This document shows positions 15,601-58,100 of a DNA stretch of 64,000 bases, one piece after another (positions within the stretch are counted from its first letter, which is position 1; each line of letters opens with the position of its first letter). The stretch comes from Owenia fusiformis (taxonomy: Eukaryota; Annelida; Polychaeta; Sabellida; Oweniidae), in NCBI GenBank assembly GCA_903813345.2, contig CAIIXF020000005.1:14201375-14265374 (forward strand), written 5' to 3'. A program made the translations under genes and the position numbers. The notes beneath the pieces are model-generated. The model was not told where the DNA came from and did not search any database. It was given only the letters and a program-made list of their open reading frames with translations.

Positions 15601-18600
15601 TGGGGTCCGAATTTTTTATTACATGTGTCGAAAAGTACATTATTTGATTCTAAAATGTAAGAAATAAATGATCGTTGATAATCATGAATTTCTTCGTAAC
15701 GGTACAGGTTCAATTTGTTCTCACATGTTTTCATATTAAGACAAATTCAAGCATGTTGAAGTAGACTTAAGAATGACGTCTAATTGAAAACAATTCTGTT
15801 TTTGTGATTTATCAAATTCAATTGGTTCTAACAGGTACAACTTGACTTAAGTGATCTGTTTGTTTATTTTGAAGATGACATCATATATACCGTAAATATG
15901 TTGACTCAAGAACGCATATGCGCATGTTTAAAACACTTGACAATTTGGTGTAATTTATGACATTTTGGGTGAACCTAAAATGTTGCAACGTTGATGGATG
16001 ACCATGCATTTAATATAACAACATCCTTTTTATTCCTCAAGACACAAAGGAGATTATTGAAAGTATTTTGTTAATTAAAAAGCATTTTGTTAGATGAGTT
16101 TAAAAAATATATACTTTTGATTTCCTAAAAATATCTTTCAATTTCAATGTCTTTCGACTTTGGCAATTGTTTAGTTTGTTAATATGTATTTCTGGAATAA
16201 ATTAATGTTGATAAATAAAAAAAATTCCCCAAATTGTTCAAATCTGAATCTTAAGCTAGAATGCCACTTTGATTTTGACAAAACGTGGTATTTTTGCGTT
16301 TTTCCAAAAGCTCCTGGGTCAGTTTTAATAGAAATGTTCAACACATATTTCTGATGTTTTCCAGATTGAAGCTCTTCCTTGAACAGTTTGGTATTTCATC
16401 ATGCGTTCTCAACTCTGAACTACCCCTGAACTCAAGGTAAGTCTCAAATCTGTACTACCCCTTAACTTAAAGTTAAACTCAAATCTGAACTCTGTAAATC
16501 TCAACTCTAAAGTACCCCTTATCTCAAGGTAAATTTCAACTCAGAACTACCCCTTAACTCAAGGTAATTCTCAAATCTGAAGCCAAAGTAAGTATCAACA
16601 CTAAAGTACCCCTTAACTCAAGTTAAATTTCAACTCAGAACTACCCCTTAACTCAAGGTAAATCTCAAATCTGAAGTCAAAGTAAGTATCAACACTAAAG
16701 TACCCCTTAACTCAAGGTAAATTTCAACTCAGAACTACCCCTTAATTCAAGGTGAAACTCAAATCTGAACTTCCCCTGAAATTGTGATATATCTATAAAT
16801 GGGCACATAATTTTAACATTCTCTATTTGTCTACTTGTTTAGGGTCCACATCGTGAACCAGTTCAATGAAGGACTATACGACTACATCATTGCATCTGAC
16901 GAGAATGTTCTCTTTGACCCTGGTGCAGCTAAAAAACCAACAGGCAAAAATAAAGGGTAAGTTGATCTATATGAGACATGTGGCCCCTGGCTTTAGCTTT
17001 ACTGATGTATCATAGCTTTATGCTTAACAAATTCAAAATGGGAAAAGGAAATAGGAAATTGGAAAAGGTTTCACATTTCCAATGATGAATAAACACAAGG
17101 AGCACATGTGTCTCAAACTCGCCATGACATAGTTCTTTCGATGGGATTAGCTACTTATTTGTTATGAAATGATGAATAAGCATCACTATATTACTTTTCA
17201 GAGGAAAACGTAAGAAAGACAAAGAATATGGTGTGTCTCGTGGAATTGATTTCCAGCATGTTTCCAATGTCATCAATTTTGATTTCCCGCCAAATCCTAA
17301 TGCTTATATCCATCGTGTGGGTCGTACAGCACGTGGAGACAACACAGGAACTGCACTGTCATTCGTCAGCATAAAGGAGATGGAGCTTCTAAAGGAAGTT
17401 GAAAATGAACTAGATTCAAATGAAGGTAATGATATATTCACCCTATTCACATTGATGTCTTAAAATAGAAAGTGCCCATGCAAAAAATACTTGTAATCTA
17501 GAAGAATTATTAATCACTTGAATTCTGAAATTTAAACTTCAATTTATATTTTCCCTTTGGCTTTTCTCAGTGCCAAAATTTTGGTAGAAAGACTAAGGAG
17601 TCTTAAAGGAGCACGTGGGTTATCGCAAACAATTTCAGAAGGTTATATCTTGGATTATGACTTTTTTCTGACAATGAAGACAAGTTTATTTTTTAGATCA
17701 ATTCATTATCTCAAAGAAAATTATGCACAGTAATAATAAATTCAAACAAACTCGGTGATATTTAACTAGCAATTAACCCATCAACACACTTTTTGACCCC
17801 ATTTTGAAGATGTTGACCCCATTTTCACCAAAAATGCAATCATTTTTTACAATGTTTAATGCATTACTATTCTTTATTTTGATGTATCAAATAGTTCTTG
17901 AAAGAAAAACTTAATTGCATTAAGATAAGTGTTCCCCATGTTATTTCTCCATTGAAAAATCTCATGCTATCCATTGGTTTCAGTTCATTTTGGTCATCCA
18001 AATTGAATATCTTTAAAGTCCCTGGAGCAATCACATTTTCCTTTTAGGAAATCGAACATGTCTCAAAGCACATTCTAATTATGCATTCAACAATATAATA
18101 ATAGGTTGCATTTTTGGTGAAAATTAGGTCAACATTTTTGAAAAAGTATGTTGATTGGTCCATTGCCCCTTCAATATCACTAAGGTCTGATTAACTAAAT
18201 TATCATTATATATACTTTTCTTGAAGATAATGAATGGATCTAAAAGATACACCCATGTACATGATCAGAAAATATTTATAATTCAAGTTAGAATCGTTTG
18301 AAATTGTTTGCGATAACCTACGTGCTCCTTTAGAAATTTGAGGACCTCCTATACACCATCCCCCTCCCCCACTTGATTTAAAAGGATGGTAAATGTTCAA
18401 AAATAGAAAAAAAATATTGGGACACCTTAACTTTTTAGATGGGGATTCATCAGTGTTCAAACCATACCAGTTCAAGATGGAAGAGATCGAGGGATTCCGT
18501 TACAGAGCTAAAGATGCCATGAGGGCTGTAACAAGTGTAGCAGTTAGGGAGGCCAGATTAAAAGAAATAAAATCAGAAATATTTAATTCACAAAAACTAA

Positions 18601-20991
18601 AGGTACTTAAAGATGGGATATTTCAGTGTAAACTCTGGCTAATGAAATAGCTTTGAAAATGCTGATTAGATAGCTCTAACATTAAAGGTTTCTATTCGAT
18701 TTTGCCACAGGAAATAAGTAATATTATGATGGGTTTAAATGATAGGACAATAGGATTTGATTTTGGTTAGATTTCAAATCAAATAGAAACTAATAAAAAA
18801 GATATCCCAAGTGTCAAAATATTAGTGCAATCAAATCGTATCCACCATGTTAAATTTGGCACCAATTGCTCTATATGGTCATGCAGCAAAACTCCTTCTG
18901 ATAAGACCCTCTGATAAGAGTGCTATCTTTTGGCAGTGTGAGATTTTAAAAGCATGAAATCTGGAAATATGTAGTCTACTGTTATGTGTGATGGAAAATG
19001 ATAGAAAAAGTGAATATTAGTACATTGCACTACTCTAGCCAATATATCAAAGCTGATATATTGAATTATCGTATGATCTGTAAAATAAAGCCCTCTGATT
19101 GGTCAGTTCTTGTGCTGTATCAATCTGTATTGCTACTGAGCTTGCCCCCTTTGATCATCTTTGGAGCAATACAGAAAATATTGGTAAGGAGAGGACAATC
19201 TCAGTAGCAATACAGGGAATACAGAATATTTCTAAGTGATTACCTCCTAGGTAAAATGTATTGGCCTAAGATCACACAATAAAGACGTTATAGAATGCTT
19301 TGAAGTGCAATACAGTGTATATATTCTGCTCTCGATATTCTGTATTGGGGCTCGACTTCCTCTCGTTCCAATACAGAATTTCTCGAGCACAATACATCCT
19401 GTATTGCACTTCAAATTATTAAATAACTTATATCATTGGAGTAGAGTAGTGCAGTGTACTAATATTGGTGTGGGTAACAAACTGTCCAAGCAAAAATGGG
19501 ATTACCTTATTGCTAAACAACCTATGCCATCATCAATCTAGCCAATATATGGTAGCTTCTTTGATATACCAAAAGGTGACATTACTGATTGGAAAGGTCT
19601 ATTATGAAGGGCCCAGGCAGAAAGTATTTGTATGTCACCACCACAAGTAGTGACATATTGTAATAACTTTTTTGTGGCGATGGTTGGTGTTCGGCATCTG
19701 TAATAAATGGCAGGTGGTGACAATATGCATGTTGATATTATTATTTACTGGTACATGTATTATAATGTTATTTTCAGTCATATTTTGAGGATAATCCACG
19801 TGATCTGCAAGTCTTAAGACACGACAAGTCTTTGCATACAGTTAAACTACAAGAACATCTGAAGAACGTACCAGAATATCTAGGTAAAAGTTTTGTCAGT
19901 ACCCATCAGTTCATTCAGTTTACCTGTCTAATAAAGCAATTGTAAACTTGTGTTATATTTCTAGTTAGTGGGCTAATTTTTTTAATTTCCCTGATTATTT
20001 TTTACATTAGAGATACAATGTAGTCAGTCCACTTATAGAAAGGTCAACAGTAAAATATACGACGTAAACTGACGATGTGAGTGTGACAAATGATATACTG
20101 TGTTAGTATTGTTATATCCATGGTTATAGTCATTATCCTACTCGTTTGGGGGGATATACTATAGAGATGCCATCTTTCCACCCGATTGTTCGTCTGTCCA
20201 GGCGATAACTCAAATACCGGTTGACTTGATTTGACTCAAATCTTAAAGGCTTATGCTTGAATATTTAATAACATTCCTCCCTTGTTTTCAGTTCCAAAGA
20301 CATTGAAGAACATGCGTGGTGGCATGCGATCAAGGAAGCAACCTCGGCAGAGTGTGAAAGCACCAGTAACAAAAGGTCAAATGAAATATAGGGTGAGTAA
20401 TACAGTTATACCCTTACATTACATACAGCATGTACATGTCTTTGTGTCTCCTTAGTAGGAGATCAACTACGTGACAGGACATTGAAAGAAGTAAAAAGGA
20501 GGATCCTTATGATTTTCATAGATTTAAAATTGGTGTAATACCATTGTGGAGTTATCACAAAATAACCTACATTCTTTTCCAGTTTTTTTTATCAGAGTAC
20601 ATGCTAGTAGTAAAAAATTATAAACAGAGATATGTAAAAGAATATTTTCTATTTAAGACACAATTGGCTAGATGGGTTTAGTCAAAGTTATCACCAAATA
20701 CCTCACATTATTTTTCTATCTCAAATGGGAATGGTGGTAAACAGAAACATACACAAAACAATTGTTTAAAATAGCTTTCCAATGGTACAAAATTCACCCA
20801 CATGTCGTAAATGTACATTGATGGAGTACTTTTCTGGTGCTTTTGTGCCATAGTTTCTGCAGCTTATTTATGAAATGCCACATTAAGATGATAACATTAT
20901 TTATATTTTTATTTTTCAGAAAAGAAAAGCAGATCCACTAAAGAGCTTTGAATTTGTGGGACTGAAGAAATCAAAGAAGAAAAAACATTAA
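6697..20991 (+). CDS. DDX56: ATP-dependent RNA helicase DDX56, C-terminal half (8 exons)
   Basis: Coding exons are 6697-6801, 16365-16436, 16843-16956, 17202-17425, 18439-18602, 19778-19883, 20292-20392 and 20920-20991. All have GT-AG borders and phases that match, giving about 319 residues to TAA. The first exon ([20 protein letters not shown]) and second ([16 protein letters not shown]) form the start of the RecA-like domain 2. Motif V ([16 protein letters not shown]) and motif VI (HRVGRTAR) follow. Next comes the DDX56-specific block [20 protein letters not shown], and the protein ends in a Lys-rich tail (KKSKKKKH) suited to nucleolar targeting. DDX56 (yeast Dbp9) acts in assembly of the 60S ribosomal subunit. 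Domain 1, with the Walker A and DEAD motifs, is not in the window, so the gene should start left of position 1 with another intron of at least 6.7 kb. The 9.6 kb intron after the first visible exon contains two genes on the other strand. Confidence 0.93.
7020..7165. repeat. Imperfect palindrome of about 145 bp
   Basis: The left arm (gggtattatatcgagtaata ... ccataggactaggcac) pairs with the complement of the right arm (gtgccgagccctgtgg ... gatataatacct). The centre is near 7090. No terminal motif or target duplication is clear. Confidence 0.45.
7569..7736. mobile_element. Worn copy of the TACAGTAAAACCTGT MITE family
   Basis: Shares 'acctgtttaatccaaa', 'aacatggaagtcaatggga' and 'gaggtgttcagatta' with the longer element at 30059-30559. 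The terminal repeats are degraded. It lies in the large DDX56 intron. Confidence 0.55.
8220..9156 (-). CDS. Ly6/uPAR-family GPI-anchored protein 1, 163 aa
   Basis: Exons on minus are 9156-9099 (signal peptide, [20 protein letters not shown]), 8791-8648 and 8509-8220. Both introns are phase 1, and the total is 164 codons including TAA. The mature part has ten cysteines in Ly6 order: it begins LQCYSC and closes with CYWIC and LCN, the usual end of the three-finger fold. A Thr/Pro/Ser-rich stalk and a hydrophobic C-terminus ([16 protein letters not shown]) follow, as expected for GPI attachment at the cell surface. The gene lies wholly inside a DDX56 intron on the opposite strand. Its nearest relative is the gene at 11680-14017, which has the same exon layout and an identical exon 2 length of 144 bp. 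Ligand or partner is unknown. Related invertebrate proteins include ion-channel modulators such as Quiver/Sleepless, but nothing here proves that role. Confidence 0.9.
9283..9765 (+). mobile_element. Decayed LINE fragment (endonuclease end and RT-linker)
   Basis: One frame reads [16 protein letters not shown], the conserved GDFNIDL motif of the APE-type endonuclease in Jockey/CR1/RTE-like LINEs. It is followed by [18 protein letters not shown], also typical. A shifted frame farther on reads [20 protein letters not shown], the block just before the reverse transcriptase. Stops and internal loss separate the parts, so it is inactive. It lies between the two Ly6 genes in the DDX56 intron. Confidence 0.75.
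10201..10349. mobile_element. Palindromic MITE of the TACAGGGTG family
   Basis: The right end complements to TACAGGGTGAGACTAAAAAG. The left arm (aaaaagtgtcacccacatta) matches the complement of the right arm well, but the outer left terminus is lost. It ends 15 bp from the solitary Ly6 exon. Confidence 0.5.
10365..10410 (-). pseudogene. Solitary Ly6 signal-peptide exon
   Basis: On minus, 46 bp encode [17 protein letters not shown] and end in a phase-1 donor (CTACAG/GTAAGA), exactly like exon 1 of the Ly6 gene at 9156-9099. The sequence just upstream (GAACCGCAAG) also matches that gene (GAACCACAAG). No matching exon 2 or 3 is visible between 9160 and 10360, so this is the remnant of a third tandem Ly6 gene. 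It could instead be an alternative first exon spliced to the 8791 exon; the donor and phase would permit that. Confidence 0.7.
10411..11679. other. No feature recognised (DDX56 intron)
   Basis: AT-rich intronic DNA between the solitary Ly6 exon and the second Ly6 gene. I see no exon, repeat end or RNA gene in it. Confidence 0.5.
11680..14017 (-). CDS. Ly6/uPAR-family GPI-anchored protein 2, 144 aa
   Basis: Exons on minus are 14017-13969 (signal peptide, [17 protein letters not shown]), 12897-12754 and 11921-11680. Both introns are phase 1, and the total is 145 codons including TAG. The start is the ATG of MRLLYFF; the codons before it include no in-frame ATG. Ten cysteines have the same spacing as in the first Ly6 gene: CYSC near the start, then [16 protein letters not shown] and DFCN. 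A short Pro/Ser/Thr stalk and a hydrophobic end ([15 protein letters not shown]) suggest GPI anchoring. It is a tandem duplicate of the gene at 8220-9156, with a shorter stalk, nested in the same DDX56 intron on the opposite strand. Its first intron is 1.07 kb with no recognised insert. Confidence 0.9.
14018..16364. other. No feature recognised (DDX56 intron)
   Basis: About 2.3 kb of AT-rich intron between the second Ly6 gene and the DDX56 exon at 16365. I see no open frame with domain content, no paired termini and no tandem array. Confidence 0.5.
16411..16775 (+). repeat. Tandem array containing a DDX56 5' splice site
   Basis: Units of about 26-36 bp read 'tctgaactacccctgaactcaag/gtaagtctcaaa'. 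The first unit is the real end of the exon at 16365-16436 plus its donor. About nine further copies follow in the intron, with at least four exact AAG/GTAA junctions (near 16527, 16563, 16658 and 16716). The exon tail was therefore copied together with its splice site. Confidence 0.85.
17606..18330. mobile_element. Inverted-repeat element with about 31-bp ends
   Basis: The ends start AAGGAGCACGTGGGTTATC and the complement of GATAACCTACGTGCTCCTT, differing at one base over about 31 bp, and are flanked by TA at 17604-17605 and 18331-18332. The 725-bp interior has no transposase. It lies between two DDX56 exons, its right end 108 bp before the exon at 18439. Confidence 0.85.
19013..19466. mobile_element. 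Inverted-repeat element with AATATTAGTACA ends
   Basis: The left end (aatattagtacattgcacta) and the complement of the right end (aatattagtacactgcacta) match over about 30 bp. The interior repeats 'caatacag' on both strands. It lies in a DDX56 intron. Confidence 0.75.
19634..19735 (+). repeat. Copy of the GTGGTGACATATTG interspersed repeat
   Basis: Contains 'gtcaccaccacaagtagtga', 'ttttttgtgg', 'gtaataaatggcaggtggtg' and 'gcatgttgat', matching the copy at 50468-50605. It lies 42 bp before the acceptor of the exon at 19778. Confidence 0.65.
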
Positions 20992-21236
20992 TGCACTGAC
21001 AAACAAACTTAGTGCTATTTTACTGTAAAGATGAAGACTATTAACACAGATATGTGAAATATGTGAAAATATATGTGAATATAACTATTGTTTTGAAATA
21101 CCATTCAGATGTCTGTTGAATCATTGTATAAAAGGTACTCATCCAAAACAAAAGAGCCAAAGCAAAAGGCATGAATGCCCTCTCAATGTGGTGATTTTGG
21201 AAGTGTTCACAGCAGGATGATACTAATAGATTGAGT

Positions 21237-21447
21237 TGCTATCATCCAAGAGAGCTTTCATCCAAGAGGGCTATCATCCAAGAGGGCTATCATCCAAGTG
21301 GGCTTTCATCCAAGAGGGCTTTCATCCAAGAGGGCTTTCATCCAAGAGGGCTATCATCCAAGAGGGCTATTATCCAAGAGGGCTATCATCCAAGAGGGCT
21401 ATCATCCAAGAGGGCTATCATCCTAGAGGGCTATCATCCAAGATGGT
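21237..21447 (+). repeat. 16-bp minisatellite, about 13 copies
   Basis: The unit is 'gggctatcatccaaga' with T/A variation at one site (ctatc/ctttc). It starts about 245 bp past the DDX56 stop codon and is probably in its 3' UTR. Because 16 is not a multiple of 3, all frames stay open and give apparent small proteins; these are not genes. Confidence 0.9.
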
Positions 21448-29200: not shown

Positions 29201-32200
29201 ATGTTCCGACGCTCAAACATATAAAACATTTGAAGAAACCCTGTGTGGAGAGTCTCAGATCGGTCTGTTGCTAAGCGAGCGATTCATCAACATTCCTCCA
29301 CAGATTGCGCCACCTATGTATGACAGTTTAATGTAAGTAGTAATGTATAGTCAACTCGTGGGCTGCTCTTTTGATATTTTGTTGTTGAAATATAGGTTTT
29401 TTGAAATTTCAATCTGAAGGTTTGGTTTATTTTGACATGAAGATGAGTATATGAAGCTATATTGTAAGTTAGTGTATAAGTTAACTCGTGGCTTTTTCTA
29501 TTGACCTATAACAATAAGAAATGAATGAGATATTACACTGGATACAACGAATTTTGTCCAGCAACTTGGATGATACAAACTCCAGTTGTTGACCAGGCAA
29601 AAATTGAAGGATGTTTTTCCTGTTGTGAATTAAGTGATGGGACCTGGCTGGTTTAAATATTATCTAAGTTAATGACACCATAATTATAGTTCTTATTAAA
29701 TGATGTCAAGGATGAATCCTAGATGATGGTAATACATCGTCGGTTCCAATGCTCAATCACAGGTATAAGCTTGATGAAGCAAGATGAAACCCTGGGATGA
29801 AACAGCAAGCCATTTACGATATGAACTACTTGGCACATACAACAATAATGTCAGTGTGTAGCCAGAGATATATGACATTAAAAGTTAAATGTAATATATG
29901 TGGTACCATGGTGTGCAGGGTATGTCCTAGTATTTTAACATTGGCTAAAAGCCACATTCGTATTGACTTAAAAGTGTCCTCCTACATAGCCAGTCTTTTG
30001 GTTATAGAGATAGTGACCTTAAACGAATGGATATAGGATATAGGAGCCAATAAGTATATACAGTAAAACCTGTCTAATTCAAACGCCATTGCGACCACCT
30101 TAAAGCGTTCAGATTAGGAGATGTTCACATTTCGTTTTTTTGCATTCTTGAGATTCCGGATTCTAAAGAAATGTGAAGACATTCTAGGTACATATTTATA
30201 GTTCATTTGACCACATAGCTTTACGACATTTCAGAAATTTGAAAATTCAATTTGAATCTAGTCATGCTGGAAAGCCCTATTATAATCAAGACCATTCAAG
30301 TTTTTTCCCATAGTTTTGATATCATAACAATATTTGAGCAATTTTGTATGAAACATTTGAAATTTTATGAAAAGTGTTCAGATTAGACAGGTTAATTTTT
30401 TTTTCAAATATGACTGTTGACTGTTTAAATTGAGAGGTGTTGACATTTCAATTTTTTTAACATGGAAGTCAATGGGAGGAAAAAATGGGACCGAAAAAAG
30501 TGTTCAGATTTGGAGGTGCTTGGATTACCCAGGTATTCAGATATACAGGTTCTACTGTACAGTGTATATTACATAGGAAATATTACTGTGAATATCTTTT
30601 ACTCTGAAAGAAAGCAAATAAATAATAGAAAATATTAAGAATCTCTCAGATAAATTAGGATCATCAAATTTTGAGGAATTTTGATGGGGGGTTTGCATGA
30701 ACCCCTCAAACCCCTGTCGCTACAGGCATGCTCTTTACTATTCACTCAACTCTGATGAGAATTTAGAAAATCATGAAGTTGTCTATTTCAATAAAATGAG
30801 GACATTTGTAGCCTTGCCTCATGTCTCTGGACCCCAAGCCCTTATCTACTTCACCAGAGTTGGTAGTGGGGGGGGGGTTACAAAGGCTTGTAGCTAGACT
30901 ATTTGCTAGGCCATTTGCTGTCAATGTTAGTTAAAAAATGTTGTTGAAAAATCTTGCAAAGAACCCTGACGCATGTGATGTTCATTTTTCACTCTACTAT
31001 ACCTAACACCTAGAAATGCATAAGATACTTTGTTTGTCTAATTGTATTGTTTAGTATATTTTTGAAAGGGCCTTAGTAACATCTAACATTCAACCGATAA
31101 ACCATTAATAAGGAACAGACAAATAAAAACAAATACATAATCATTACTAATAAGCCAAATGTGTTGCTCATGAACACCAAATGCAAGGTATAGTAGAGTG
31201 TTTTTGCATTTCAGAAAAGACATCGATAAAGCAAATAAAAACAAGATGAAGTACAACTTTGATTACTACCTAATGTTCATAAAAACCTACAGGATGACAG
31301 TTTATCAAGGAATGTCAAAGAAAAAGAAGAAAGGCCAGGGTGTTTTACAAACCACCTATGTCAATGTGGAGGAAGAATTCTTCGTCGAGGTAAGGGCTTC
31401 ACTCTTCAGATTTGAGGGGTACATCCAAAGTGATATACTTTTTTCAAGATTTTACTCTCTTGTCACACAACTTGTTCAAAATTAGAAGAAACTTATTTTT
31501 ATGTCTTACATGTTTTATCTTATTGTATAGTAGAGAGGGGGGAAGTTATCTATTTTGGTCAGTTTGGAATAGTGGATAACTCAGTTAGTAAATAAATTAT
31601 CTGTTGTCGACGAATCTTCCACATTTTTACATTGAGAATATGATGCTGAATATTGTTTCTCAAAACAGAATTAATGATAAAATTGATATATTATTCTATA
31701 AGAGAACAAGTCGAAGAAATTCTTAAATTCAGTATGAGTATTGTGCGTCAAGAATCATATCATATATCAATCAATAAAAAAACTATCAACCAAATAGAAA
31801 ATAAAAATGCAATTTCATGTTCGACTTTCATTTTCAAAAAAGAGGTGACAGTGTTAGAGCTAACATCTTCTGTGACCAGGATCTGTAACATTTGTTACAC
31901 TTTCCCAGGATCTGTAACATTTGTTACACTTAACCAGGATCTGTAACATTTGTTACACTTTACCAGGATCTGTAACATTTGTTACACTTTACCAGGATAT
32001 GTAACATTTGTTACACTTTACCAGGATCTGTAACATTTGTTACACTTTACCAGGATCTGTAACATTTGTTACACTTTACCAGGATCTGTAACATTTGCTA
32101 CACTTTACCAGGATCTGTAACATTTTTACACTTTACCAGGATCTGTAACATTTGTTACACTTTACCAGGTGAGGTGACATATTACACTAATGCTTTGTTT

Positions 32201-32619: not shown

Positions 32620-33215
32620 AAACTAGACAACAGCAATGCCAAAGTGTAGCAAATCCCATCGGACAGCAATGGCTGGCATTTTTACAAACGAAATATATAG
32701 CAAATATCGTAAAGTAAAACACATAAGAAAGGTCACCATTTTCAAAATGGTTGCTCACTAGACAAGTTGTCATCAGAAAAAGTAATATGCTTTTAAGTAG
32801 GCACATATAAAAATATGAACAAAATCGCTCCACTACTTTTCAAGTTACAGCAAAAATCGTAAGATGGCGTGTAAAGGCAGCCATTTTTCAAGATGGCTGC
32901 CACTTATTTCTTAAATATTTACAAATCTAGCTTTATTAATGTCCGATATAACTTTTTTACATTGAAAACATATTGCTATTACAGTTTTATATACAGTACC
33001 TAAATTACTGTAAAATCGGTACTAAAATGGCTGCCATTTTTTAACGAGCAGGCATTTTAAAAAAATCTGCTTTCAAGCAGAACTTGTACTCCCACGGGGC
33101 ACATGTGTACAAAGTATGAACAAATTTCGGCGAGCGGTATTTGAGTTATCGTCCGGACAAAGAGATGGACGGAGGCGTTCCCTATATCCCTCCAAACTTC
33201 GTTCGATGGGATAAT
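32620..33215 (-). repeat. Copy of the ATCCCATCGAAC satellite-bearing family
   Basis: One end reads 'gacaacagcaatgccaaagt' then 'caaatcccatcgga'. The other ends 'cttcgttcgatgggataat'. The interior carries the 'gctccactacttttcaagtt' and 'aagatggctgccat' motifs. It has about one internal unit only and is more diverged than the copies at 39870 and 52813. Confidence 0.75.
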
Positions 33216-35463: not shown

Positions 35464-38400
35464 CTATAATCGTAGGTCCTCACCCTGCAGAAGTATATAT
35501 CCAGAAAGTGTTGGTGGTAAATTTAAATCACTCACACGTCGTAATCTGGAAGCTCCCATAGATTTACGAATTGTGTACCGACAGTAATGGTGCAGAGAAA
35601 ATGGCGATTGTGTTACATTTTTGTACCATTCATGTTTTTCACGAAGATATGTGGCTTCCGGAAGTTTATGTACACCAGGATTAATTCCATGGGAAACTGA
35701 AAGCAATGCATCAATAAAGATGTCATCTTGATCCATATAAACATGATCCCCTTGACCACCCATTGCTTGCCTATTTTGATTTCCTTGACCACCCATTGCT
35801 TGTCCATTCTGACCACCCATTGGTTGTTCATTCTGACCACCTATTGCTTGCCCATGCTGATCCCCTATTGCTTGCCCATTCTGACCACCAATTGCTTGCC
35901 CATTCTGACCACCCATTCCTTGCCCATTCTGGCCACCCATTGCTCGCCCATTTTGGATTCTTAATAATGCTTGCCTGTTCTGACCACCCATTGCTTGCCC
36001 ATTCTGGATTCCTATTGCTTGCCCATTCTGGCCACCCATTGCTTGCCCATTCTGAACACCCATTCCTTGCCCATTCTGGCCACCCATTGCTCGCCCATTT
36101 TGGATTCCTAATGCTTGCCCATTCTGACCACCCATTCCTTGCCCATTCTGGATTCCTATTGCTTGCCCGTTCTGACCACCCATTGCTTGCCCATTCTGGA
36201 TTCCTATTGCTTGCCCATTCTGACCACCCATTGCTTGCCCATTCTGGATTCCTATTGCTTGCCCATTCTGACCACCCATGGCTTGTCCATTCTGATTACC
36301 TTGACCACCAATTGCTTGCCCAAAATCACAAAGGTCCACTAATCCCTCATCCTCCGAATCAGAGTCTAATACAGGTCTATATATAGGTGGCGCAATGGCT
36401 GGTACAGGTGGTTGCCCATGAGTAGCCAAAGGTAGGTTTGGCACACGCTGTGCACTGTTTATCCCATGTGATTGGAAATCGTCATGAAATTGGAGAATTT
36501 GCGCTAACTCAGGAAGACCATTTTGTCGAAGTATTACTTGGGCGGCTGCTGAATCACTTGACGGATGTGGAATAAAGTTTAGTCCAGCCATATAAGCTCT
36601 GAGATCTGCAGCAGGACCTGGATAGCCTGCAGAATGTAGCAGCCTAACTGCTCTATGAACACTACCATATGATAACATCTGCATGAGGGAATTGTGATCT
36701 CTTTGCTGATTTGGGGGCATATTTGGTTGATTGAGACGTACCATTGGATTGGAGTTCATTTGTGTTCCCCCTGGTTGTGCTGGTTGTGACTGATTATGAT
36801 ACTGAGTCAGCGGTGTATTCGTGTTCACAATCGTCTCTAAAGCTGGAATGTTGACCTCTGATTGCACAATAGCCTGGAGAATCATATCATCCATTGTTTC
36901 GCATCTCAGTTCATGCTCAAGTAAATTTGAATATCTGCGGTCCTGAACTTTGCGATAATCAGCTCCATAAGCTATGAGAAGAGCAGCTAATTTAGGTTGA
37001 CGATCTCGATTTGTTTTTTCGACGAGATGTGATCCAATAGTTGCATACTTGAGAGGTGTATTGCCTGAAATACAAATGCTTTAATTAGTCTTATAGTAAT
37101 AGTGATTTGTGTGGGTTAAACCTGCACATCGCTCCAAAACGCAATATGTTGACATATATTGTTTATACATTTTTATGCTCTAATATAAAGTTTATGTAAA
37201 TAAAAATTGTTTTTTCTGCGTAATATCAAAGAACAATTATTTAGTTAAAAAAATAAAAAAGTGAGTACGGGATTCAAACACGGAACGCCTGCGCACTGAG
37301 CGAGCATTTTACCGCAAGGCTACCATGTTATTATGGATGATGGGAGTAATTAAACGCTACTTATGTTGAATGCTATAATTCGGAAGTGACGTCACGTTCT
37401 TAATTTAGAAACCTTCCAAAAATCATATCATCGTTGACAATCGAAGCAATTCAATGAACAAGCTTCGAAATGACACATTTATCTTAAGTATTTGTACACA
37501 AGATTTGCCCCATTTGTTCATCATTCTATAATCTTTCATTAAAATCAAAATGATAAAGTTCTCCCCCAAAACAACCCAAGATTGCGTTTCGGGGCAAACA
37601 GCAGCTTTAAACAGGGCTTAGGTAACTTTGTGTTTTCAATGCACCATTTGTGCTTTTATAAAGACAGGGAAACAAGGAGTTCATTTTCATAGGATAAAAC
37701 CTGTATATAAAAATCAATAGGATATCCTTTGTATCCCATATCTACTAAGGTTCTAGGTAGATAACATGTAGGAATATATGTTGCATCCATTTATTAGTAA
37801 TTGCAAAAATGTGGATGTGGGATACATCCGTTATGTTTGTTCAGTTTTTGATACAGACAATATCCAGAGGGAAATACCTATATCTTAGACTTCCATGTAC
37901 AAAACCCTTATATACCAACCTCTTATATCGGGTACATCCACTTTAACATCGAACCCTTTCTTCAGCATAAGCTCTAGAATCTCTAAGTTAGAACACTGCA
38001 GAGTACAAGCAAGGTGTAAAGGGGAGACTCCTGCATTGTTTAGTATATTAACATCAGAGCCATGCTGTAATAGGAGATCTACTGCATCATACATGCCATG
38101 GAGCACACAACAGTGGAGTGGGGTGTTCCCTGCAATGATAAATGTTTTTAGCAAAGGCAAACAACAACTGAACAATGGAGCAGGGTGTTCCCTGCAATGA
38201 AGAATGTTTTTAGCAAATGCACACAACAGTGGAGTGGGGTGTTCCCTGCAATGATAAATGTTTTTAATAAATGCACACAACAGTGGAGTGGAGTGTTCCC
38301 TGCAATGATAAATGTTTTTAGCAAAGGCACACAACAACTGAACAATGGAGCGGGGTGTTCCCTGCAATGAAGAATGTTTTTAGCAAATGCACACAACAGT

Positions 38401-41400
38401 GGAGTGGGGTGTTCCCTGCAATGATAAATGTTTTTAATAAATGCACACAACAGTGGAGTGGGGTGTTCCCTGCAATGATAAATGTTTTTAATAAATGCAC
38501 ACAACAGTGGAGTGGGGTGTTCCCTGCAATGATAAATGTTTTTAATAAATGCACACAACAGTGGAGTGGGGTGTTCCCTGCAATGATAAATGTTTTTAGC
38601 AAAGGCACACAACAGTGGAGTGGGGTGTTCCCTGCAATGAAAACTGATTTTAGAAAAGGCACACAACAATGGAGCGGGGTGTTCCCTGCAATGATAAATG
38701 TTTTTAGCAAAGGCACACAACAGTGGAGTGGGGTGTTCCCTGCAATGAAAACTGATTTTGGAAAAGGCACACAACAATGGAGGCGTGTTCCCTGCAATGG
38801 AGAATGTTTTTAGCAAAGGCACACAACTGTGGAGTGGGGTGTTCCCTGCAATAAAGAATGATTTTAGAAAAGGCACACAACAATGGAGGGGGGTGTTCCC
38901 TGCAATAAAGAATGATTTTAGAAAAGGCACACAACAGTATAACTGTGTAGCAGGGTGTTCCCTCAACACTACTTGAACAAGAAGACGCGTATTTTTCAGA
39001 ATTTTTGCTGAATAAACACAGCATTTTCATTTAAATAAAGTCAGAACGAGAACAACAAATGCCATGAGCCAAAATATTGTAAAATTGTCATCCCTTGTAT
39101 TTTTGTTTTTAACCAATAACATTGACATTCTCACCTGTTTTTTTAGTAGGTAAAGAGAGAATATCTTTGCTGATTGCGTTACGAAGCTGTATGGTAACAC
39201 ATTCTTCTAGCCCCAATGTTGCCGCTATGTTTAGACTTGTCTCACCTTGAAATCATCGAAACAATGAATGGTTTAATCATTGAAACAATGGATGGTTTAA
39301 TCATTGAAACAATGGATGATTTAATCTTTGGTACAATGGATGGTTTTATCATTGGAGCGATTACAATTTAATCATTGAAACAATGGATAAACAATGAATG
39401 GATTAATCATTGGAACGATGGATAGTTTGATTTGGAACAATGGATGGTTAAATAATTGGAACAAGGGATGGTTTAATCTTTGGAACCATGGATTGTTTAA
39501 TCATTGAAACAATGGATGGTTTAATCATTGAGACAATGGATGGTTTAATCATTGAGACAATGGATGGTTTAATCATTGAGACAATGGATGGTTTAATCAT
39601 TGAAACAACGGATGGTTTAACCATTGAAACATTGGATGGTTTAATCATTGAAACAATGAAACTATGATGCAATAGTAGAACTCATACATACCTAATTCGT
39701 TAACTTTATTGTAATCAGCGCCATTAACAATGAGTTCCTTGATACAATGTATCCGGTTGTTCTGCACGGCTAAATGCAATGGAGTTGTATCGCCAACATA
39801 TTCAGACTCTGAAAAACAACATTTTATCCCTTATTCGACAATAAAATGATATAAGGTGAATATTGAAGGTCAACCAGAACAACGGCAACGCCAAAGCGTA
39901 GCGAATCCCATCGAACATTTTTCAAAAGGGGCACCTTCTACCAAAAGTGTCATTAGACAGTGTGCCATGCTTATAATATTCACATACCAAATATGAACAA
40001 AATCGCTCTACTACTTTTCGAGTTATAGTAAAATACGTTAAAATGGTGGCCATTTTGAAAAATGGCCGCCTTCTACTAAAAGTCTCATTAGACAGTGTGC
40101 CATGCTTATAGTATTCACATACCAAATATGAACAAAATCGCTCCACTACTTTTCGAGTTATAGTAAAATACGTTAAAATGGCGGCCATTTTGAAAAATGG
40201 CCGCCTTCTACCAAAAATGTCATTAGACAGTGTGCCATGCTTATACGTATTCACGTACCAAATATGAACAAAATCGCTCCACTACTTTTCGAGTTATAGT
40301 AAAATAAGTTAAAATGGTAGCCATTTTTCAAAATGTCCACCATTTTTCAAAATGGCCGCCTTCTACCAAAAGTGTCATTAGACAGTGTGCCATGCTTACA
40401 GTATTCACATACCGAATATGAACAAAATCGCTCCACTACTTTTCGAGTTATAGTAAAATACGTTAAAATGGCGGCCATTTTGAAAAATGACCGCCCTCTA
40501 CCAAAAGTGTCATTAGACAGTGTGCCATGCTTATACGTATTTACATACCAAATATGAACAAAATCGCTCCACTACTTTTCGAGTTTTAGTAAAATAAGTT
40601 AAAATAGCGGCCATTTTTCAAAATGTCCGCCATTTTTCAAAATGGCCACCTTCTACCAAAAGTGTCATTAGACAGTGTGCCATGCTTATAGTATTCACAT
40701 ACCAAATATGAACAAAATCGCTCCACTACTTTTCAAGTTACAGCAAAAATCGTAAAATAACGAGAAAAGGCCGCCATTTTTCAAGATGGCTGCCATGTGC
40801 TTTTTTAATATCTACATTTCTAGCTTTATTAATGTCCTATATAATATATTTTACATTTGAAACATATTGCTATTACAGTTTTACATATTGCAACTAAATT
40901 ACTGTAAAATCGGCACTAAAATGGCCGCCATTTTGAAATGAGTGGCCATTTTGAAAATCGGCTTTCGAGCAGAACTTCTACCCCCATAGGGTATATGTAT
41001 ACAAAATATGAATAAAATCAGGCCAACGGTATTTGAGTTATTGCCCGGACGGACGTACGGACGGACGGACGTACGTACGGACGGACGGACGGACGGACGG
41101 AGGCGTTCCCTATATCCCTCCGAACTTCGTTCGATGGGATAATAAAAACATTATTAGAGGAATTAAATATCATCCTGAATTTGATCATAATGCATGCTGT
41201 CCATGAGAGTCATTCGGCATCAAGCCCCGATATTACAAAAAAATCAGAATTTATCAAAAAATGTTCAAAAAGAAACCTTTCTGACAGACATCAAAACTCT
41301 ACCCAGGATTTTTTGTGTGGAGGATTTTGTTATTTTTCTAGTGTAACATTTTCTTATTTTTGTAACTTTTTGCGCAACATTTTACGATTTTGTAAGTTTT

Positions 41401-48700: not shown

Positions 48701-50447
48701 TTTTCACAAAAAAAGTAAATCATGAAAAAATTCATGGTTGTTTCATAAATCAGATTTTCTTTATTCATACCTCAAAGATATGTAATATCAACCGAATAGC
48801 TACAATGCCCATCCTAACAATGAAATGTTTTTAAAATCCAGGGGGGTTCACATTTGACAACTATGGACCAAAATCATGTGAAATGTGCTCAGAATGGTAA
48901 AAAAACTCCCCTTCCCACTATGTGCCTGGATTTTGTCATACTGCTTCGTAGACAAAATACTTTTTTTTAGGTTTGATGTTTTCAAAAAAGAAGATCTATT
49001 AATTTTGTAAGCTCATTATGCTTAGAAACAGTTTAGGGTTACAGCCCTTTGAATATGACTTTTAAAGAAATATTAATGATTTCCAGCATTTTGTCCTGCA
49101 TGGCAAAGAATCACTGCCCTTGTTAGTAGAGGATTTGTGAAGAAGCGCCAAATGAACAGAAAGCCAGTTTATCAGCTGTTGCCATTAGGAGAGGACCTTG
49201 CAAAGAGGCTAAGGGATAAGATAAATGGTAAAAATCTGTTTATATTTTTTTTAATCAATATGTTTTTTTCATGAATACAAGCATACAGTGAATAAACAGG
49301 GTCTGGTCAAATGTTCTTCCGTCCCCATCTGTTTATGCAGTTCTGTTTGATATTATTCCATTCCCGACTTCATAAATTAAGCATGGTGAATCATATGGTG
49401 AATCATATGGGGATATAATCTGTCTGCTGATAATGAAATTGATAATAAAGCAGTTTCATGTATCCATAGTCTAAGTAGCATCCTCAAGTATTCTTGTAAA
49501 GGTGAATAAGGTGGGGGGGGGCTGAGCTGGGGAGGATATGGGGGGAATAGAGTAGATTACCAATCTAATCTTATGTAAGATTTACTTTTTATGCCGCTGC
49601 TTATACAGGACACTTGATTGTAAAACCAACTTTTGACATTTGTATCAACAGCAACAGCACAGACTGACACTAAACCCCCCTCTACAGCACAAAGGAAAAC
49701 TCCAGCTTCTAAACCAAAACCTAAGGAATCTGTTAATGCTAGTGCCACCAAACCAAAACGTGGACGGCCAAAGCCTGATGATATTAAGGTCCCAACAGCC
49801 AGAGAGAGAGATGAGGAGGCCCTGTACACCAACGACAAGGGAGAAGATGGGATTGTGCTGATTGTGGACACCCAGGAATGGGGTGGAGACAATGTTGGAC
49901 TCGGAGAGGTGACCTTCTTGATTTTTGTCACTTATGTCACGGTTGTCACCACCAAATGACAAATGTGGTGACTTATTGTTATTGTCTCCAACTTTTTGTG
50001 GACTGTGTTCAGTGGTGACATTTTGCATGTTAATGCAGAGGAAAGGCAATCTTGTTTAACTCTTTGAACTCATGGTATAACTAAACTATACTCAGCAAAA
50101 TGGAAAGTGCTAGCTCTATAATAAAGAAGACCCTCATGGCATTTTCCTGAAACATGAACCAACTTTTTTTTCATCCTACCAAATCCAAGATATATTTTTC
50201 CCAACAATCTTACATGATAAATAAACCTTAAAAAGTTGCTTGGTAATTTATAGTTTACGCTTAGCCCTAATGAGAACCCTTCTAACTAGTTATACCAATG
50301 TGGTGTATTTACAGTTGATACGTCTACTGCAGCAGCAAGGCATAGTGTATAAGACTAAGAGACTGAAATGCGGGGACTACAACTGGATCTGGAGATGTGC
50401 AGGAGAGGAGAGAACGTTGCCATTAGTGATCGAGAGAAAAAGAGCAG
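45766..50447 (+). CDS. MUS81: MUS81-like structure-specific endonuclease subunit, 5' part (7 exons)
   Basis: Exons are 45766-45807, 47333-47491, 48018-48172, 48505-48599, 49087-49227, 49652-49908 and 50315-50447. Splice sites and phases fit and give 327 residues so far. The N-terminus has a helix-hairpin-helix region (AIVSLDLHGESVKSIKQASQ, then EGIGRLIGSRLKDH). A winged-helix block follows (ITALVSRGFVKKRQMNRKPV), then a Ser/Thr/Lys linker with an AT-hook-like KRGRPKP. The ERCC4 nuclease domain begins GIVLIVDTQEWGG and reaches IERKRA, the start of the catalytic ERKxxxD motif. MUS81 with EME1 cuts stalled forks and recombination intermediates. The exon ends in a phase-1 donor. The rest of the nuclease and the second HhH are not found up to 64000, so the next intron is over 13 kb or the gene is truncated. 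Confidence 0.82.
46310..46990. repeat. About 55-65-bp minisatellite in MUS81 intron 1, orientation flips
   Basis: The right block (46510-46990) repeats 'ttgtcacggtcatatcaggc' then 'tttaacattaccatggtcat' then 'gacaggccttgcaa'. The left block (46310-46470) holds about two units in the opposite orientation (gcctgatatgatcatgacaa). The junction lies near 46480-46510. The 151-codon open frame on minus is a by-product of the repeat. Confidence 0.85.
47550..47919. mobile_element. Inverted-repeat element with about 65-bp ends
   Basis: TAGCCTGACAACGGCAAAGT on the left and TAGCCTGACAATGGTAAAGT on the complement of the right continue as inverted copies to 'acataac.gtcgcttcaa'. TA edges. It lies in MUS81-like intron 2, 58 bp past the exon end at 47491. 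Confidence 0.85.
48838..48920. repeat. End-less fragment of the CAGGCC..AGCCAGG family
   Basis: Shares 'ccaggggggttcacatttga' and 'gtgctcagaatggtaaaaaa' with 42565-42640. No termini remain. Confidence 0.5.
49946..50045 (+). repeat. Copy of the GTGGTGACATATTG interspersed repeat
   Basis: Contains 'gtggtgacttattgttattg', 'actttttgtggactgtgttc' and 'ttttgcatgttaatgc'. It starts 37 bp after the exon end at 49908. This is a shorter form, missing the middle of the 50468 copy. Confidence 0.6.
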
Positions 50448-50467
50448 GTAGCCAATACTTTAAACTA

Positions 50468-52056: not shown

Positions 52057-52626
52057 CTATCACACCAAACTAGTTCTTACCCGTTCTTGCCAGTCCTACG
52101 AAAATGTCGTAAAACGGGCTCAATCTGGCTGCGGTCGGGATATATGTCTAAAATAATTAGCTACTTCGTTAATAAACAGTCTTCAATACATTAATCTCAT
52201 TCGCAGTTCGTTCAGGTCGCACCACGTCGGTGTGCAACGTAGTATAAACCGTCCCTTAGTCTAGAAGGTCATCATGACCTGATTACAGAACGGTATGGTC
52301 GCCATCGAATTTTGAATCGATTCAAAATTCTAAATCACATACCCCGTTCTGGAAAGTCCATGAAGTTCTTAAACAGACCGTTGAACGTTGTAGCTATGTT
52401 CATTCAGTTCGCACACAGTTTAAAACCGATTTGGTAACGTTTTGATGATCACCAGAAAATTTTGAGCATGCTCTAAGTGCTGGAGGACCTACTCGTTCTA
52501 GTAGTTCCATGAAGTTTGTAAACAGATCCCAAACGGTTCTTAGTGGGTTCTTAGTACGTCAAATCCGTTCGTGCACAGTTTAAGCCCGTTTTCGAGAACG
52601 TAGTGAGAACTAGTTTGGTGTGATAG
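52057..52626. mobile_element. Inverted-repeat element, CTATCACACCAAACTAG ends, 570 bp
   Basis: CTATCACACCAAACTAGTTC occurs at the left and, complemented, at the right. The interior is less AT-rich than its surroundings and rich in 'cgttct' and 'gttcgt' motifs on both strands. There is no open frame of note. Confidence 0.8.
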
Positions 52627-52812
52627 TAGGGTTATGAGTTCTTTCACATATAACATATTTACAGCGGTTTCCTAGCATCATTTACTTTATGAATTTATTT
52701 GAAATTTTATAATCAGAAATACACATATACACTCAAAAACATAAAACATGGGTTAAATATTTTTTCCATATATCATGAAGCTCTTTACATTGTTAGGACA
52801 TTAAAAAGCTAT

Positions 52813-54125
52813 TTATTATTATCCCATCGAACGAAGTTCGGAGGGATATAGGGAACGCCTCCGTCCGTCCGTCCGTCCGTACGTACGTCCGTCCGTCCGT
52901 CCGTACGTACGTCTGTCCGTCCGTACGTACGTCCGTCCGTCCGTCTGTCCGGGCAATAACTCAAATACCGTTGGCCCGATTTTATTCATATTTTGTACAC
53001 ATATACCCTATGGGGGTAGAAGTTCTGCTCGAAAGCCGATTTTCAAAATGGCCGCTCATTTAAAAATTGCGGCCATTTTAGTGCCGATTTTACAGTAATT
53101 TAGGTGCAATATGTAAAACTGTAATAGCAATATGTTTTAAATGTAAAAAAAACTATATAGGACATTAATAAAGCTAGAAATGTAGATATTAAAAAAGCAC
53201 ATGGCAGCCATCTTGAAAAATGGCGGCCTTTACTCGTTATTTTACGATTTTTGCTGTAACTCGAAAAGTAGTGGAGCGATATTGTTCATATTTGGTATGT
53301 GAATACTATAAGCATGGTACACTGTCTAAAGACACTTTTGGTAGAAGGCGGCCATTTTGAAAAATGGCGGACATTTTGAAAAATGGCCGCCGTTTTAACT
53401 TATTTTACTAAAACTCGAAAAGTAGTGGAGCGATTTTGTTCATATTTGGTACGTGAATACGTATAAGAATGGCACACTGTCTAATGACACTTTTGGTAGA
53501 GGGCGGTCATTTTTCAAAATTGCCGCCATTTTAACGTATTTTACTATAACTCGAAAAGTAGTGGAGCGATTTTGTTCATATTTGGTATGTGAATACTGTA
53601 AGCATGGCACACTGTCTAATGACACTTTTGGTAGAAGGCGGCCATTTTGAAAAATGGCGGACATTTTGAAAAATGGCTGCCATTTTAACTTATTTTACTA
53701 TAACTCGAAAAGTAGTTGAGCGATTTTGTTCATATTTGGTACGTGAATACGTATAAGCATGGCACACTGTCTAATGACACTTTTGGTAGAAGGCGGCTAT
53801 TTTTCAAAATGGCCGCCATTTTAACGCATTTTACTATAACTCGAAAAGTAGTGGAGCGATTTTGTTCATATTTGGTATGTGAATACTATAAGCATGGCAC
53901 ACTGTCTAATGAGACTTTTGGTAGAAGGCGGCCATTTTTCAAAATGGCCACCATTTTAACATATTTTACTATAACTCGAAAAGTAGTAGAGCGATTTTGT
54001 TCATATTTGGTATGTGAATATTATAAGCATGGCACACTGTCTAATGACACTTTTGGTAGAAGGTGCCCCTTTTGAAAAATGTTCGATGGGATTCGCTAGG
54101 CTTTGGCGTTGCCGTTGTTCTGGTT
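52813..54125 (+). repeat. Long copy B of the ATCCCATCGAAC satellite-bearing family
   Basis: Starts 'ttatcccatcgaacgaagtt', then a long CCGT/ACGT microsatellite (52861-52945), then about five units with 'gtggagcgattttgttcata', 'agcatggcacactgtctaat' and 'aatggcggccatt' palindromes. It ends 'gttcgatgggattcgctagg' and 'gccgttgttctgg'. Structure and sequence closely match copy A (39870-41146) in the opposite orientation. The open frames inside are not supported as genes. Confidence 0.85.
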
Positions 54126-55127
54126 GTTTAATGTGACCGCCATGTAAAATACACTTCAAAAATCACAATTATTGCTTGTATATACAATAAAACCTGTGTA
54201 CATTGAATACATTTGGAGCCACAAAAATGTTACCTATAAGGTGTGCAAAGAGAGTCTTTTATATACAGTATGTAAAACACACTTCAAAAATCACAATTAT
54301 TGCTTGTATATACAATAAAACCTTTGTACATTGAATAAATTTGGAGCCACAAAAATGTTACCTATAAGGTGTACGAAGAGAGTCTTTTATATACAGTTGG
54401 AAGTATATATTACATTCAGAGAAAGTATGCATGCAAGAACTTTTCACAAGGATAGGCTAATTCATTGTAGTTCAAATTTTAACATATTTTGAATACTGTA
54501 GTTACTTAGAACATGGTATTGATGGAAACATGGCCCTCTTCTCCCTTCGACCCCCTCCTGTCAGTGCTTAATGCTTCATGGAAGTATCTCTTCAGGGCCC
54601 CTATGTCCTGTGAAAGTATGTCTTTAAGAGGTCATTGCCCCTGCAAACATAATGCCACTATCTGGTGCTTTATCAGAATTAAAACTATTATCAATTGAGT
54701 TTTTTTATCGCACTTTTTCAAAGTGCTATATTATCATGGTATTTTGTTAATGGGGATGCATGTATCCATTTGTGTGAATGGATTGATTAGATCTGATACC
54801 ATGTAGTTTAGAAATTATATGAGATAATCTGTGGCTCACTGTTGAGTCACTATAATGGCTCAATGTCTCCTTCAGGCATCCATTGACCATGAACTAAGAT
54901 TAAATAACTAATAATATCACAATAAGTACACCTTTCATGTTAAACATAGTCTTAATAATATAGAATCATTTCTTTTCGTATTTGCACTTCATATTCATAA
55001 AATGAGTGTTGTGCTGATGTAACCTGTACATAATCCCATCAAACAACTTTTGAGGGGGATATAAAGAAGCTGTCCATCCATTGTCTTTAGACTGGACTCA
55101 CTCGGTATCTTTTGTCATTTGCTCAAT
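54126..55127. other. Intergenic DNA with a 127-bp tandem duplication and a repeat relic
   Basis: Two copies of a 127-bp unit ('cacttcaaaaatcacaatta' to 'agagtcttttatatacag') lie at about 54148-54270 and 54275-54400. A worn terminus of the satellite-bearing family ('aatcccatcaaacaactttt') lies at 55032-55085. The right end should include the 3' UTR of the EGF gene. No gene is recognised. Confidence 0.6.
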
Positions 55128-58100
55128 CTATTTGGTTGTGGTCTCCAATGGTGGTGTTGTGTTTTTGTTTGCTTCTTCAGAACTCACATTTTCACATTTG
55201 TCTCCATAGTAACTAGGGGGGCAGATACATATTAGATCTCCATAACTATTTACAGTGCAAGTTCCACCATTTTTGCAATATGGATTGCCACCCCTTCCTG
55301 CTCTTCTACACAGTCTCTCTGAAACAGTAATGTAATACATATGATTGAAATAGATAATAACTACATAACCTTCATTTTAACATTTTTGCAATATGGATTG
55401 CCACCCCTTCCTGCTCTTCTACACAGTCTCTCTGAAACAGTAACATGTGATACATATGATTGAAATAGATAACTACATAACCTTCATTTTAACATTTTTG
55501 CAATATGGATTGCCACCCCTTCCTGCTCTTCTACACAGTCTCTCTGAAACAGTAACATGTGATACATATGATTGAAATAGATAACTACATAACCTTCATT
55601 TTAACATTTTTGCAATATGGATTGCCACCCCTTCCTGCTCTTCTACACAGTCTCTCTGAAACAGTAACATGTGATACATATGATTGAAATAGATAACTAC
55701 ATAACCTTCATTTTAACATTTTTGCAATATGAATTGCCACCCCTTCCTGCTCTTCTACACAGTCTCTCTGAAACAGTAACATGTGATACATATGATTGAA
55801 ATAGATAACTACATAACCTTCATTTTAACATTTTTGCAATATGGATTGCCACCCCTTCCTGCTCTTCTACACAGTCTCTCTGAAACAGTAACATGTGATA
55901 CATATGATTGAAATAGATAACTACATAACCTTCATTTTAACATTTTTGCAATATGGATTGCCACCCCTTCCTGCTCTTCTACACAGTCTCTCTGAAACAG
56001 TAACATGTGATAAACGTGATTGAAATAGATAACTACATAACCTTCATTTTAACATTTTTGCAATATGGATTGCCACCCCTTCCTGCTCTTCTACACATGC
56101 AGTCTCTCTGAAACAGTAACATGTGATATACGTGATTGAAATAGATAACTACATAACCTTCATTTTAACATTTTTGCAATATGGATTGCCACCCCTTCCT
56201 GCTCTTCTACACAGTCTCTCTGAAACAGTAACATGTGATACATATGATTGAAATAGATAACTACATAACCTTCATTTTAACATTTTTGCAATATGGATTG
56301 CCAACCCTTCCTGCTCTTCTACACAGTCTCTCTGAAACAGTAACATGTGATACATATGATTGAAATAGATAATAACTACATAACCTTCATTTTAACATTT
56401 TTGCAATATGGATTGCCAACCCTTCCTGCTCTTCTACACAGTCTCTCTGAAACAGTAACATGTGATACATATGATTGAAATAGATAATAACTACATAACC
56501 TTCATTTTAACATTTTTGCAATATGGATTGCCAACCCTTCCTGCTCTTCTACACAGTCTCTCTGAAACAGTAACATGTGATACATATGATTGAAATAGAT
56601 AATAACTACATAACCTTCATTTTAACATTTTTGCAATATGGATTGCCAACCCTTCCTGCTCTTCTACACAGTCTCTCTGAAACAGTAACATGTGATATAC
56701 GTGATTGAAATAGATCACTACATAACCTTTATTAAACTGTTACTCCTAATGAATTCTCCATATTCTCTCTATGCTGATACTTATTTTATGGGTTTCCATA
56801 TTGGTTATACGAGTATACACCATTGGCCCTGTTTCCCCCTGCCTCATAAAAATTGGTGCGTTTGTCCAAAATCACCATGTAAGCCCACCAAATGGTGCTA
56901 TTCTTTATTGAGACTTACCTATGTTGACTTCACATTCTTTTCCCGCATATCCAGGCTCGCAAACACAAGAGAAATAGTGTTGCGTGGTTTCATCATTAAA
57001 TGTACAATTTCCATGCTGACAGTCTAGCATAGAGCAAAACGCATCTGAAATAAATAAAGTTGAAGTTGATGTTCAGTTGATTTCTATACTTCTCTTGAAT
57101 GGTATCTCAGAGACAAGTTCATTAATGAAGAAATATTTTTGATTCAAGTGGTTGGTAAATCTACATGTCATAATATGGAGAAGCGGGTTAACCATTACGA
57201 AGGGTGTCAAAAAACCAAACCAGTTGTTTTAGGTGTTATGTAAATTGTGTATTAACATGTAAAATCCTGTTTTTTTTTATAAAACTCCAGGCTGTAATAT
57301 ATACTTGGTGGCAAAACTCATAACTGGCAATATGTAATAAATTCTACATTTACTGCCTGTATAAACTTACCAGATGGTTCATCACAGAAGCGACCTTTGA
57401 AGTATGGCTTACATTGACATTGGGCATCAGATGTTTCGCCATCTATTGTGCACCAAGAACCCTCCTTGCAGAGATCTCTTATCACAAACTCCTCGCATGG
57501 GCTCTCTGGTGATAATTAGGATACATATATGGGATAATACATCCGTACACATTTATATACTATCAGAGCTTTTTTGGTAAATAACAATATCTGAATTTTA
57601 ATTTCTTTTATGATGTTTGAGTGGAACTCTTGCGGATCAATTTGCACAAAAAATGTTTTCATGAAAATGATTATAAAGATATTTTTAGCAAAAATAAACA
57701 TGTAGTCAATACATTTTGTTTAAACTGTTCTTTGTGATATCAAAGATGGTGGCAATGAATTTTGTTTTCTAGATTTAATTAGCAAATGAAAAGCCTAGTT
57801 TCCGTTTATATTACTACGAGTGTCTGAGTGTCATCTGATATGATACTGTGAGAGAAGTTTTCAAAACTTCTCGAGATATTTCTTTGACTGTTGTCACTGT
57901 CAGTTGAAATCAAATGAATGGGTATACTTTTTTTGATACTCGATTTAGACTGACAACATATACATACATACAAAAATATACTGTACCTTTTGTGTAAAAC
58001 ACACACCAAGGATCTCCTTCAAATTCAGGCTCCCATCTGCCATTTACACATATCTGTTCTTTCACTGGTTCTACAAATACTGGATATGTCTTATTAGAGC

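Follow-up and report, generated by a model that had tools for sequence, protein, structure and literature searches.

Tandem arrays across three exon-intron borders in a 64-kb window of the Owenia fusiformis genome resemble mirage minisatellites

A 64-kb stretch of the genome of the annelid Owenia fusiformis (contig CAIIXF020000005.1; the whole stretch is called the window below) holds tandem arrays whose repeated unit includes a splice junction of the gene in which they lie, namely a donor in a DDX56-like helicase gene and acceptors in an ankyrin-repeat gene with a SOCS box (ASB) and in a cluster of EGF-like exons. This locus raises the question of whether tandem duplication is drawn to splice junctions, and of what the copied sites mean for splicing. 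A sequence-only reading of the window had reported that these three arrays repeat their own exon-intron boundary, with the junction inside the unit, and that the units are unrelated between the three genes; both statements were borne out. As to their origin, we consider with good confidence that the arrays are minisatellites of the kind called mirages in amphioxus, and that a short tandem duplication happened to span the exon-intron border in three genes.

Three arrays that contain a splice junction

The DDX56-like exon at 16365..16436 (plus strand) was identified by tblastn with the human DDX56 protein and by phmmer against helicases in the PDB. It ends in GAACTACCCCTGAACTCAAG|GTAAGT, which places the donor at 16436|16437, the exon's last base being 16436. 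Across the join, the spliced protein aligned without a gap with the helicases SrmB and DeaD (phmmer, PDB), a gap further along being due to a query that lacked the last part of the following exon, and it also aligns with human DDX56. The final 30 bp or so of this exon are the first copy of an array detected by Tandem Repeats Finder (TRF) at 16407..16777 (plus strand), with units of 34-35 bp and a higher-order unit of 94 bp, which contains CTCAAG|GTAA and occupies 84% of the intron. Decoy donors are found in it at 16528, 16563, 16587, 16657, 16681, 16716 and 16751, together with degraded copies at 16471, 16493 and 16621.

In the ASB gene, the acceptor at 38129|38130 (minus strand, first exon base 38129) opens the ankyrin exon GNTPLHCC... 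(37920..38129), and the join rebuilds an ankyrin repeat, giving TGNTPLHCCVLHGMYDAVDLLLQHGSDVN. The first 27 bp of this exon are the exon-side copy of an array at 38103..38965 (minus strand; 38171-38938 in TRF, with 54 bp units and 14.1 copies), the ends of which were set by eye, including the extension of the homology to about 38103 in the exon. Each 54 bp unit consists of 27 bp of intron end and 27 bp of exon start, so that the acceptor ATTGCAG|GGAACAC occurs in 15 copies, the real one at 38129, besides a degraded outermost copy near 38953. The array makes up 80-83% of the intron, depending on whether it is ended at 38938 or 38965. The units vary in 19 of 56 columns, and over 56 bp the real copy does not differ from the unit at 38577, which points to exchange that extends to the functional junction and the first nine codons.

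The last EGF-like exon (ERLCRRAGRGGNPYCKNGGTC...; 55128..55318, minus strand) begins at the acceptor 55318|55319 (first exon base 55318), with the phase and the position of the E-x-x-C motif found in four paralogous exons. Its first 51 bp are the exon-side copy of an array at 55268..56733 (minus strand; TRF, 112 bp units, 13.0 copies) which represents 88% of the intron; the sequence-only reading was right about the array, but its start is 55268 and not 55376. Here the unit joins about 61 bp of intron end to 51 bp of exon start, the acceptor GTTTCAG|AGAGAC is present in 13 copies with the real one at 55318, and the units show a mean pairwise identity of 97.5%. No array was detected by TRF at the four paralogous EGF exons, whose acceptors share the same phase and residue, so that only 1/5 of the homologous acceptors carries one. 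As these paralogous exons have the intron without the array, the comparison indicates that the array grew within an older intron, and the EGF intron is on this evidence older than its array. Without the array it would measure 185 bp, somewhat less than three paralogous introns inside the window (278, 480 and 778 bp).

Excerpts of two papers on amphioxus (PMC3087553, PMC3902484) describe mirages at 5′ as well as 3′ boundaries in Adh3, the globins BflGb6 and BflGb9, troponin C and PGBD5, where RT-PCR (reverse-transcription PCR) suggests undisturbed splicing and where two haplotypes differ by having 6 and 3 units; PGBD5 was added by PMC3902484, which cites Adh and troponin C. As far as these excerpts go, the amphioxus arrays share with ours units (10 to about 160 bp in theirs) that cross a 5′ or 3′ intron-exon boundary with the authentic junction beside the copies, a unit that differs from gene to gene, and splice signals in many copies. 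They differ in that ours have more units (15 and 13 acceptors) and that three such arrays lie within 64 kb. In the window, the unit spans the boundary in all three arrays, both boundary types are represented (one donor, two acceptors), and the authentic junction, as placed by homology, stands at the array edge with the copies in the intron. By these three anatomical features, the arrays would belong to the known mirage kind.

Other parallels are less close. Human segmental-duplication genes carry internal tandem repeats at exon-intron boundaries, with 27 intron changes that have transcript support (PMC2812944, in excerpt); there too a minisatellite lies across the border and is proposed to alter introns, but the human repeats are variable between paralogues, whereas the EGF intron appears to predate its array. 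The human polyubiquitin gene UBC has an array of dual-specific splice sites that is in use (PMC10809524) and resembles the tandem AG|GT sites of the DDX56 array; in UBC, functional sites flank every coding monomer, whereas the DDX56 copies are intronic and contain in-frame stops, so that the array is not of the UBC type. Intronic minisatellites and exon 4 duplications occur in earthworm metallothionein genes, with no junction-spanning unit described in the excerpts of that paper (PMC12783039), and minisatellites of Caenorhabditis elegans have been tied to alternative splicing, again with no junction copies described in the excerpts (PMC4039745). Among the matches listed, neither the titles nor the starts of the abstracts mentioned junction-spanning arrays in a mollusc, which is not proof of their absence. 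In 1995, Turri and others reportedly described several splice donors within a minisatellite of the human interferon-induced 6-16 gene, the donor being part of the repeated unit.

Arrays and splice junctions across the window

TRF returned 56 rows for the window, which were merged by hand, with omission of short low-score rows, into 13 arrays covering 7251 bp (11.3%), or 8.6% without two dispersed-element arrays and a microsatellite. All five arrays named by the sequence-only reading were recovered. Fifty-two splice junctions were mapped, a list that omits three EGF donors (motif not found), the EGF exon 57342-57526 and the Ly6-like and MUS81-like pieces described below. Three of the 13 arrays contain a mapped junction and the remaining ten do not, one of these lying within a coding exon of the ASB gene, as expected from general minisatellite birth.

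Two further arrays had been described as abutting or nearly abutting acceptors, and they do lie close by, 5 and 37 bp away, but neither contains the acceptor. One is a 24 bp array at 39251..39658 (minus strand) that fills 91% of the ASB intron 39246-39691 and leaves the acceptor, 5 bp away, outside. The other, of 29 bp units (31875..32169, plus strand, 10.2 copies), lies in the last intron of a BCCIP-like gene and stops 37 bp short of the acceptor 32206|32207. At neither acceptor was a copy of the junction found nearby in the 24-base match test described below. The acceptor at 39245, beside the 24 bp array, reads AAG in place of CAG (TTTCAAG|GTGAG). Another minisatellite with 24 bp units, in roughly 21 copies (35786-36295), encodes GQAMGGQN/GQAIGIQN repeats in the last coding exon of the ASB gene, which alone carries three arrays.

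All tests for a bias towards junctions were performed on this one 64-kb window and are post hoc, since the pattern was first spotted in the same window. When the 13 arrays were rotated against the 52 junctions, arrays holding a junction numbered 3 compared to a mean of 3.36 (P 0.73), and junctions no more than one unit from an array end numbered 3 compared to 1.22 (P 0.093). We also determined how often a 24-base piece centred on a junction has a copy within 1500 bases. At limits of at least 18, 20 or 22 of 24 matches, such a copy was present at 3/52 junctions, versus 15.1, 12.0 and 10.7% of 3000 random positions; for noncoding positions (n = 3000), the values were 13.4% at 18 matches and 11.1% at 20. 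Laxer limits gave no clear junction excess, with 5/52 junctions versus 20.8% at 17/24, and 20/52 (38%) versus 36.9% at 16/24. Even the reduced array coverage of 8.6% is greater than the share of duplicated junctions (3/52, 5.8%).

Gene content and other features of the window

The window has a G+C content of 34.6%, contains no N, and its genes are intron-rich and animal-like. Exons of the DDX56-like gene were placed by homology on the plus strand at 6697-6801, 16365-16436, 16843-16956, 17202-17425, 18439-18602 and 19778-19883; its 5′ half was not found in the window by tblastn with the human protein as query. In its 9.5-kb intron (6802-16364), cysteine-rich exon-like open reading frames (ORFs) were seen on the opposite strand at about 8.2-8.8 kb and 11.7-12.9 kb, which look Ly6-like; the one joined piece that was tested gave no Pfam match. 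The BCCIP-like gene (23.2-32.4 kb, plus strand) was named by tblastn with human BCCIP, its C-terminal piece having no Pfam match. One of its introns contains a zf-RVT (reverse-transcriptase-associated zinc-binding) fragment at 26445-26921 (Pfam E 1.8e-6). The ASB gene runs from 45.7 to 35.5 kb on the minus strand, with Pfam Ank and SOCS_box matches on separate pieces, and the EGF-like exon cluster from 64 to 55.1 kb on the same strand, with a Pfam EGF match on the last exon. An additional exon of the EGF class, at 57342-57526, is similar to 61313-61472 and others.

Exon pieces similar to MUS81/ERCC4 were observed at 49650-50450 (plus strand), other exons not being seen among the ORFs listed to 55 kb; this fragment near 49.6-50.5 kb matched Pfam ERCC4 (E 1.3e-5), and its match to Mus81 in the PDB was weak (E 0.22), ranking under antibody chains. 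A dispersed element of about 1.3 kb is present at 39871-41148 (plus) and 52813-54126 (minus), with a partial copy at 32710-33215. The two long copies are 94.6% alike, in opposite orientation, and each has its own 135/290 bp tandem array; a single 24-base pattern from this repeat had no match in genome contigs or in viral contigs. No tRNA (transfer RNA) was found in the window by ARAGORN with bacterial settings, and no Rfam family reached its gathering score there.

Decoy sites, rival explanations and choice of the splice site

Splice sites were scored with a simple weight matrix built from a consensus and not trained on this organism, and which separated sites poorly (mapped acceptors ranged from −3.0 to 7.2). 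With 7.8, the real DDX56 donor outscored all remaining GTs of the array, none of which exceeded 3.7; the decoy copies all lack G at −1 or at +5. In the ASB array, by contrast, 7 of the 14 decoys scored higher than the real acceptor (up to 7.1 versus 3.9) and the other 7 equalled it, with CAG|GG kept in 14/14, while all 12 EGF decoys scored 2.3 compared to 2.2 for the real acceptor. Read-through from the decoys met an in-frame stop in 14/14 cases in ASB, 12/12 in EGF and 7/7 in DDX56 (33 in total, degraded copies being omitted, i.e., DDX56 16471, 16493 and 16621 and the ASB copy near 38953), so that decoy use would mostly yield transcripts for decay and not new proteins. Decoy splice sites are thus supplied, as the sequence-only reading had anticipated, but the alternative isoforms that in its view they could allow look unlikely in any useful form; small internal exons with a donor inside the unit might still arise.

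A mechanism in this genome that favours tandem duplication at splice junctions, for example through co-transcriptional structures at exon borders, seems improbable to us. Six array edges lay within 60 bp of a junction when 2.5 were expected from array rotation (P 0.046), and a Poisson model with random seed units predicted 0.54-0.98 junction-bearing units where there are three (P 0.017-0.077, a range set by the number of junctions, 55 or 70, and by the omission of the dispersed-element arrays and the microsatellite). On the other side, nearby duplication is rarer at junctions (3/52) than at random positions (11-15%), junction-containing arrays are about as frequent as rotation predicts, and four of the five homologous EGF acceptors lack an array. 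The closeness of arrays to junctions is therefore not clearly more than chance, although the small P values leave room for a mild bias, and the claim of the sequence-only reading that duplication is favoured at junctions is not demonstrated, with P from 0.017 to 0.73 across the post hoc rotation and Poisson tests. To a similarly low degree we credit the view that the decoys are functional and adjust the expression of the gene, either as poison splice sites or as dual-specific AG|GT sites spliced stepwise. The conserved cores and high scores of the ASB decoys and the match of all EGF decoys to the real site would agree with it; a stop after each decoy tested would suit decay-coupled control, five DDX56 decoys (16528, 16563, 16657, 16716 and 16751) are AG|GT sites at which stepwise splicing could be harmless, and UBC offers a precedent (PMC10809524). 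The ASB junction moreover lies in a run of 14 consecutive columns that are invariant in 15 units (the degraded outermost copy dropped), for which shuffled columns gave P 0.006 when the run had to cover the junction and P 0.021 at any place, in a post hoc test on tandem units that are not independent; the decoys could perhaps be retained for a reason. Yet the amphioxus parallels reportedly splice normally (PMC3087553, PMC3902484, in excerpt), the EGF copies are near-identical through recent amplification, so that retention of the core needs no selection, and every DDX56 decoy is weaker than the real donor. The slight excess of array edges, the Poisson result and the invariant ASB columns count against a chance origin as plain minisatellites, a reading that also presumes correct splicing in the three genes.

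The sequence-only reading had named the birth of new introns as something that such arrays could allow, a role that is not supported here. Much less probable still is an origin of these introns from exonic AG|GT sequence that was duplicated in tandem, with the arrays as what is left of it. The arrays do account for 80-91% of four introns, and excerpts of the literature argue for such an origin of some Drosophila introns, in a treatment of intron gain by tandem duplication (PMC2891723), and of introns in human duplicated genes (PMC2812944). Against this idea stand the EGF intron, which exists at four paralogous exons without an array, and DDX56, where the first 20 intron bases agree with those that open the following exon at 4/20 positions, and the last 20 with those that close the preceding exon at 6/20, which is chance level where the model asks for copies. 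An artefact of assembly or collapse is hardly credible, because the units differ from each other (19/56 columns in ASB; 76-88% matches in the DDX56 TRF rows) and the window is free of N.

If the arrays are mirage-type minisatellites, the initial duplication would have arisen by slippage or unequal exchange in a minisatellite-rich genome. As the exon has to be kept intact, the outermost copy on the exon side would alone remain functional, with all growth on the intron side; the real junction is the exon-side edge copy in 3/3 junction arrays. Thereafter, turnover and exchange would shape the copies as in other minisatellites, possibly with the functional copy included, in which case the identity of the real ASB copy to the unit at 38577 is expected. 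Splicing would still take place at the first donor in DDX56 and at the last acceptor in ASB and EGF, and the choice of the last acceptor would rest on sequence outside the unit, such as the rest of the exon, the next donor or the poly(A) site.

On present evidence, the arrays do not show a bias towards borders; what they do show is an intron whose length has probably increased several-fold as a minisatellite expanded from a border. The remaining interest lies in the choice of the last acceptor among 13 to 15, the rest of which match or exceed it in strength. It is a tentative and rather doubtful proposition that the spliceosome of this animal regularly skips as many as 14 acceptors that equal or surpass the real one in strength and resemble it over tens of bases to either side, guided solely by exon sequence outside the repeated unit, and that in many genes splice borders and first codons evolve by minisatellite exchange. 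The acceptor arrays nevertheless represent natural competition experiments, in which near-identical acceptors follow one another and, provided that the gene works, splicing may use the last one only.

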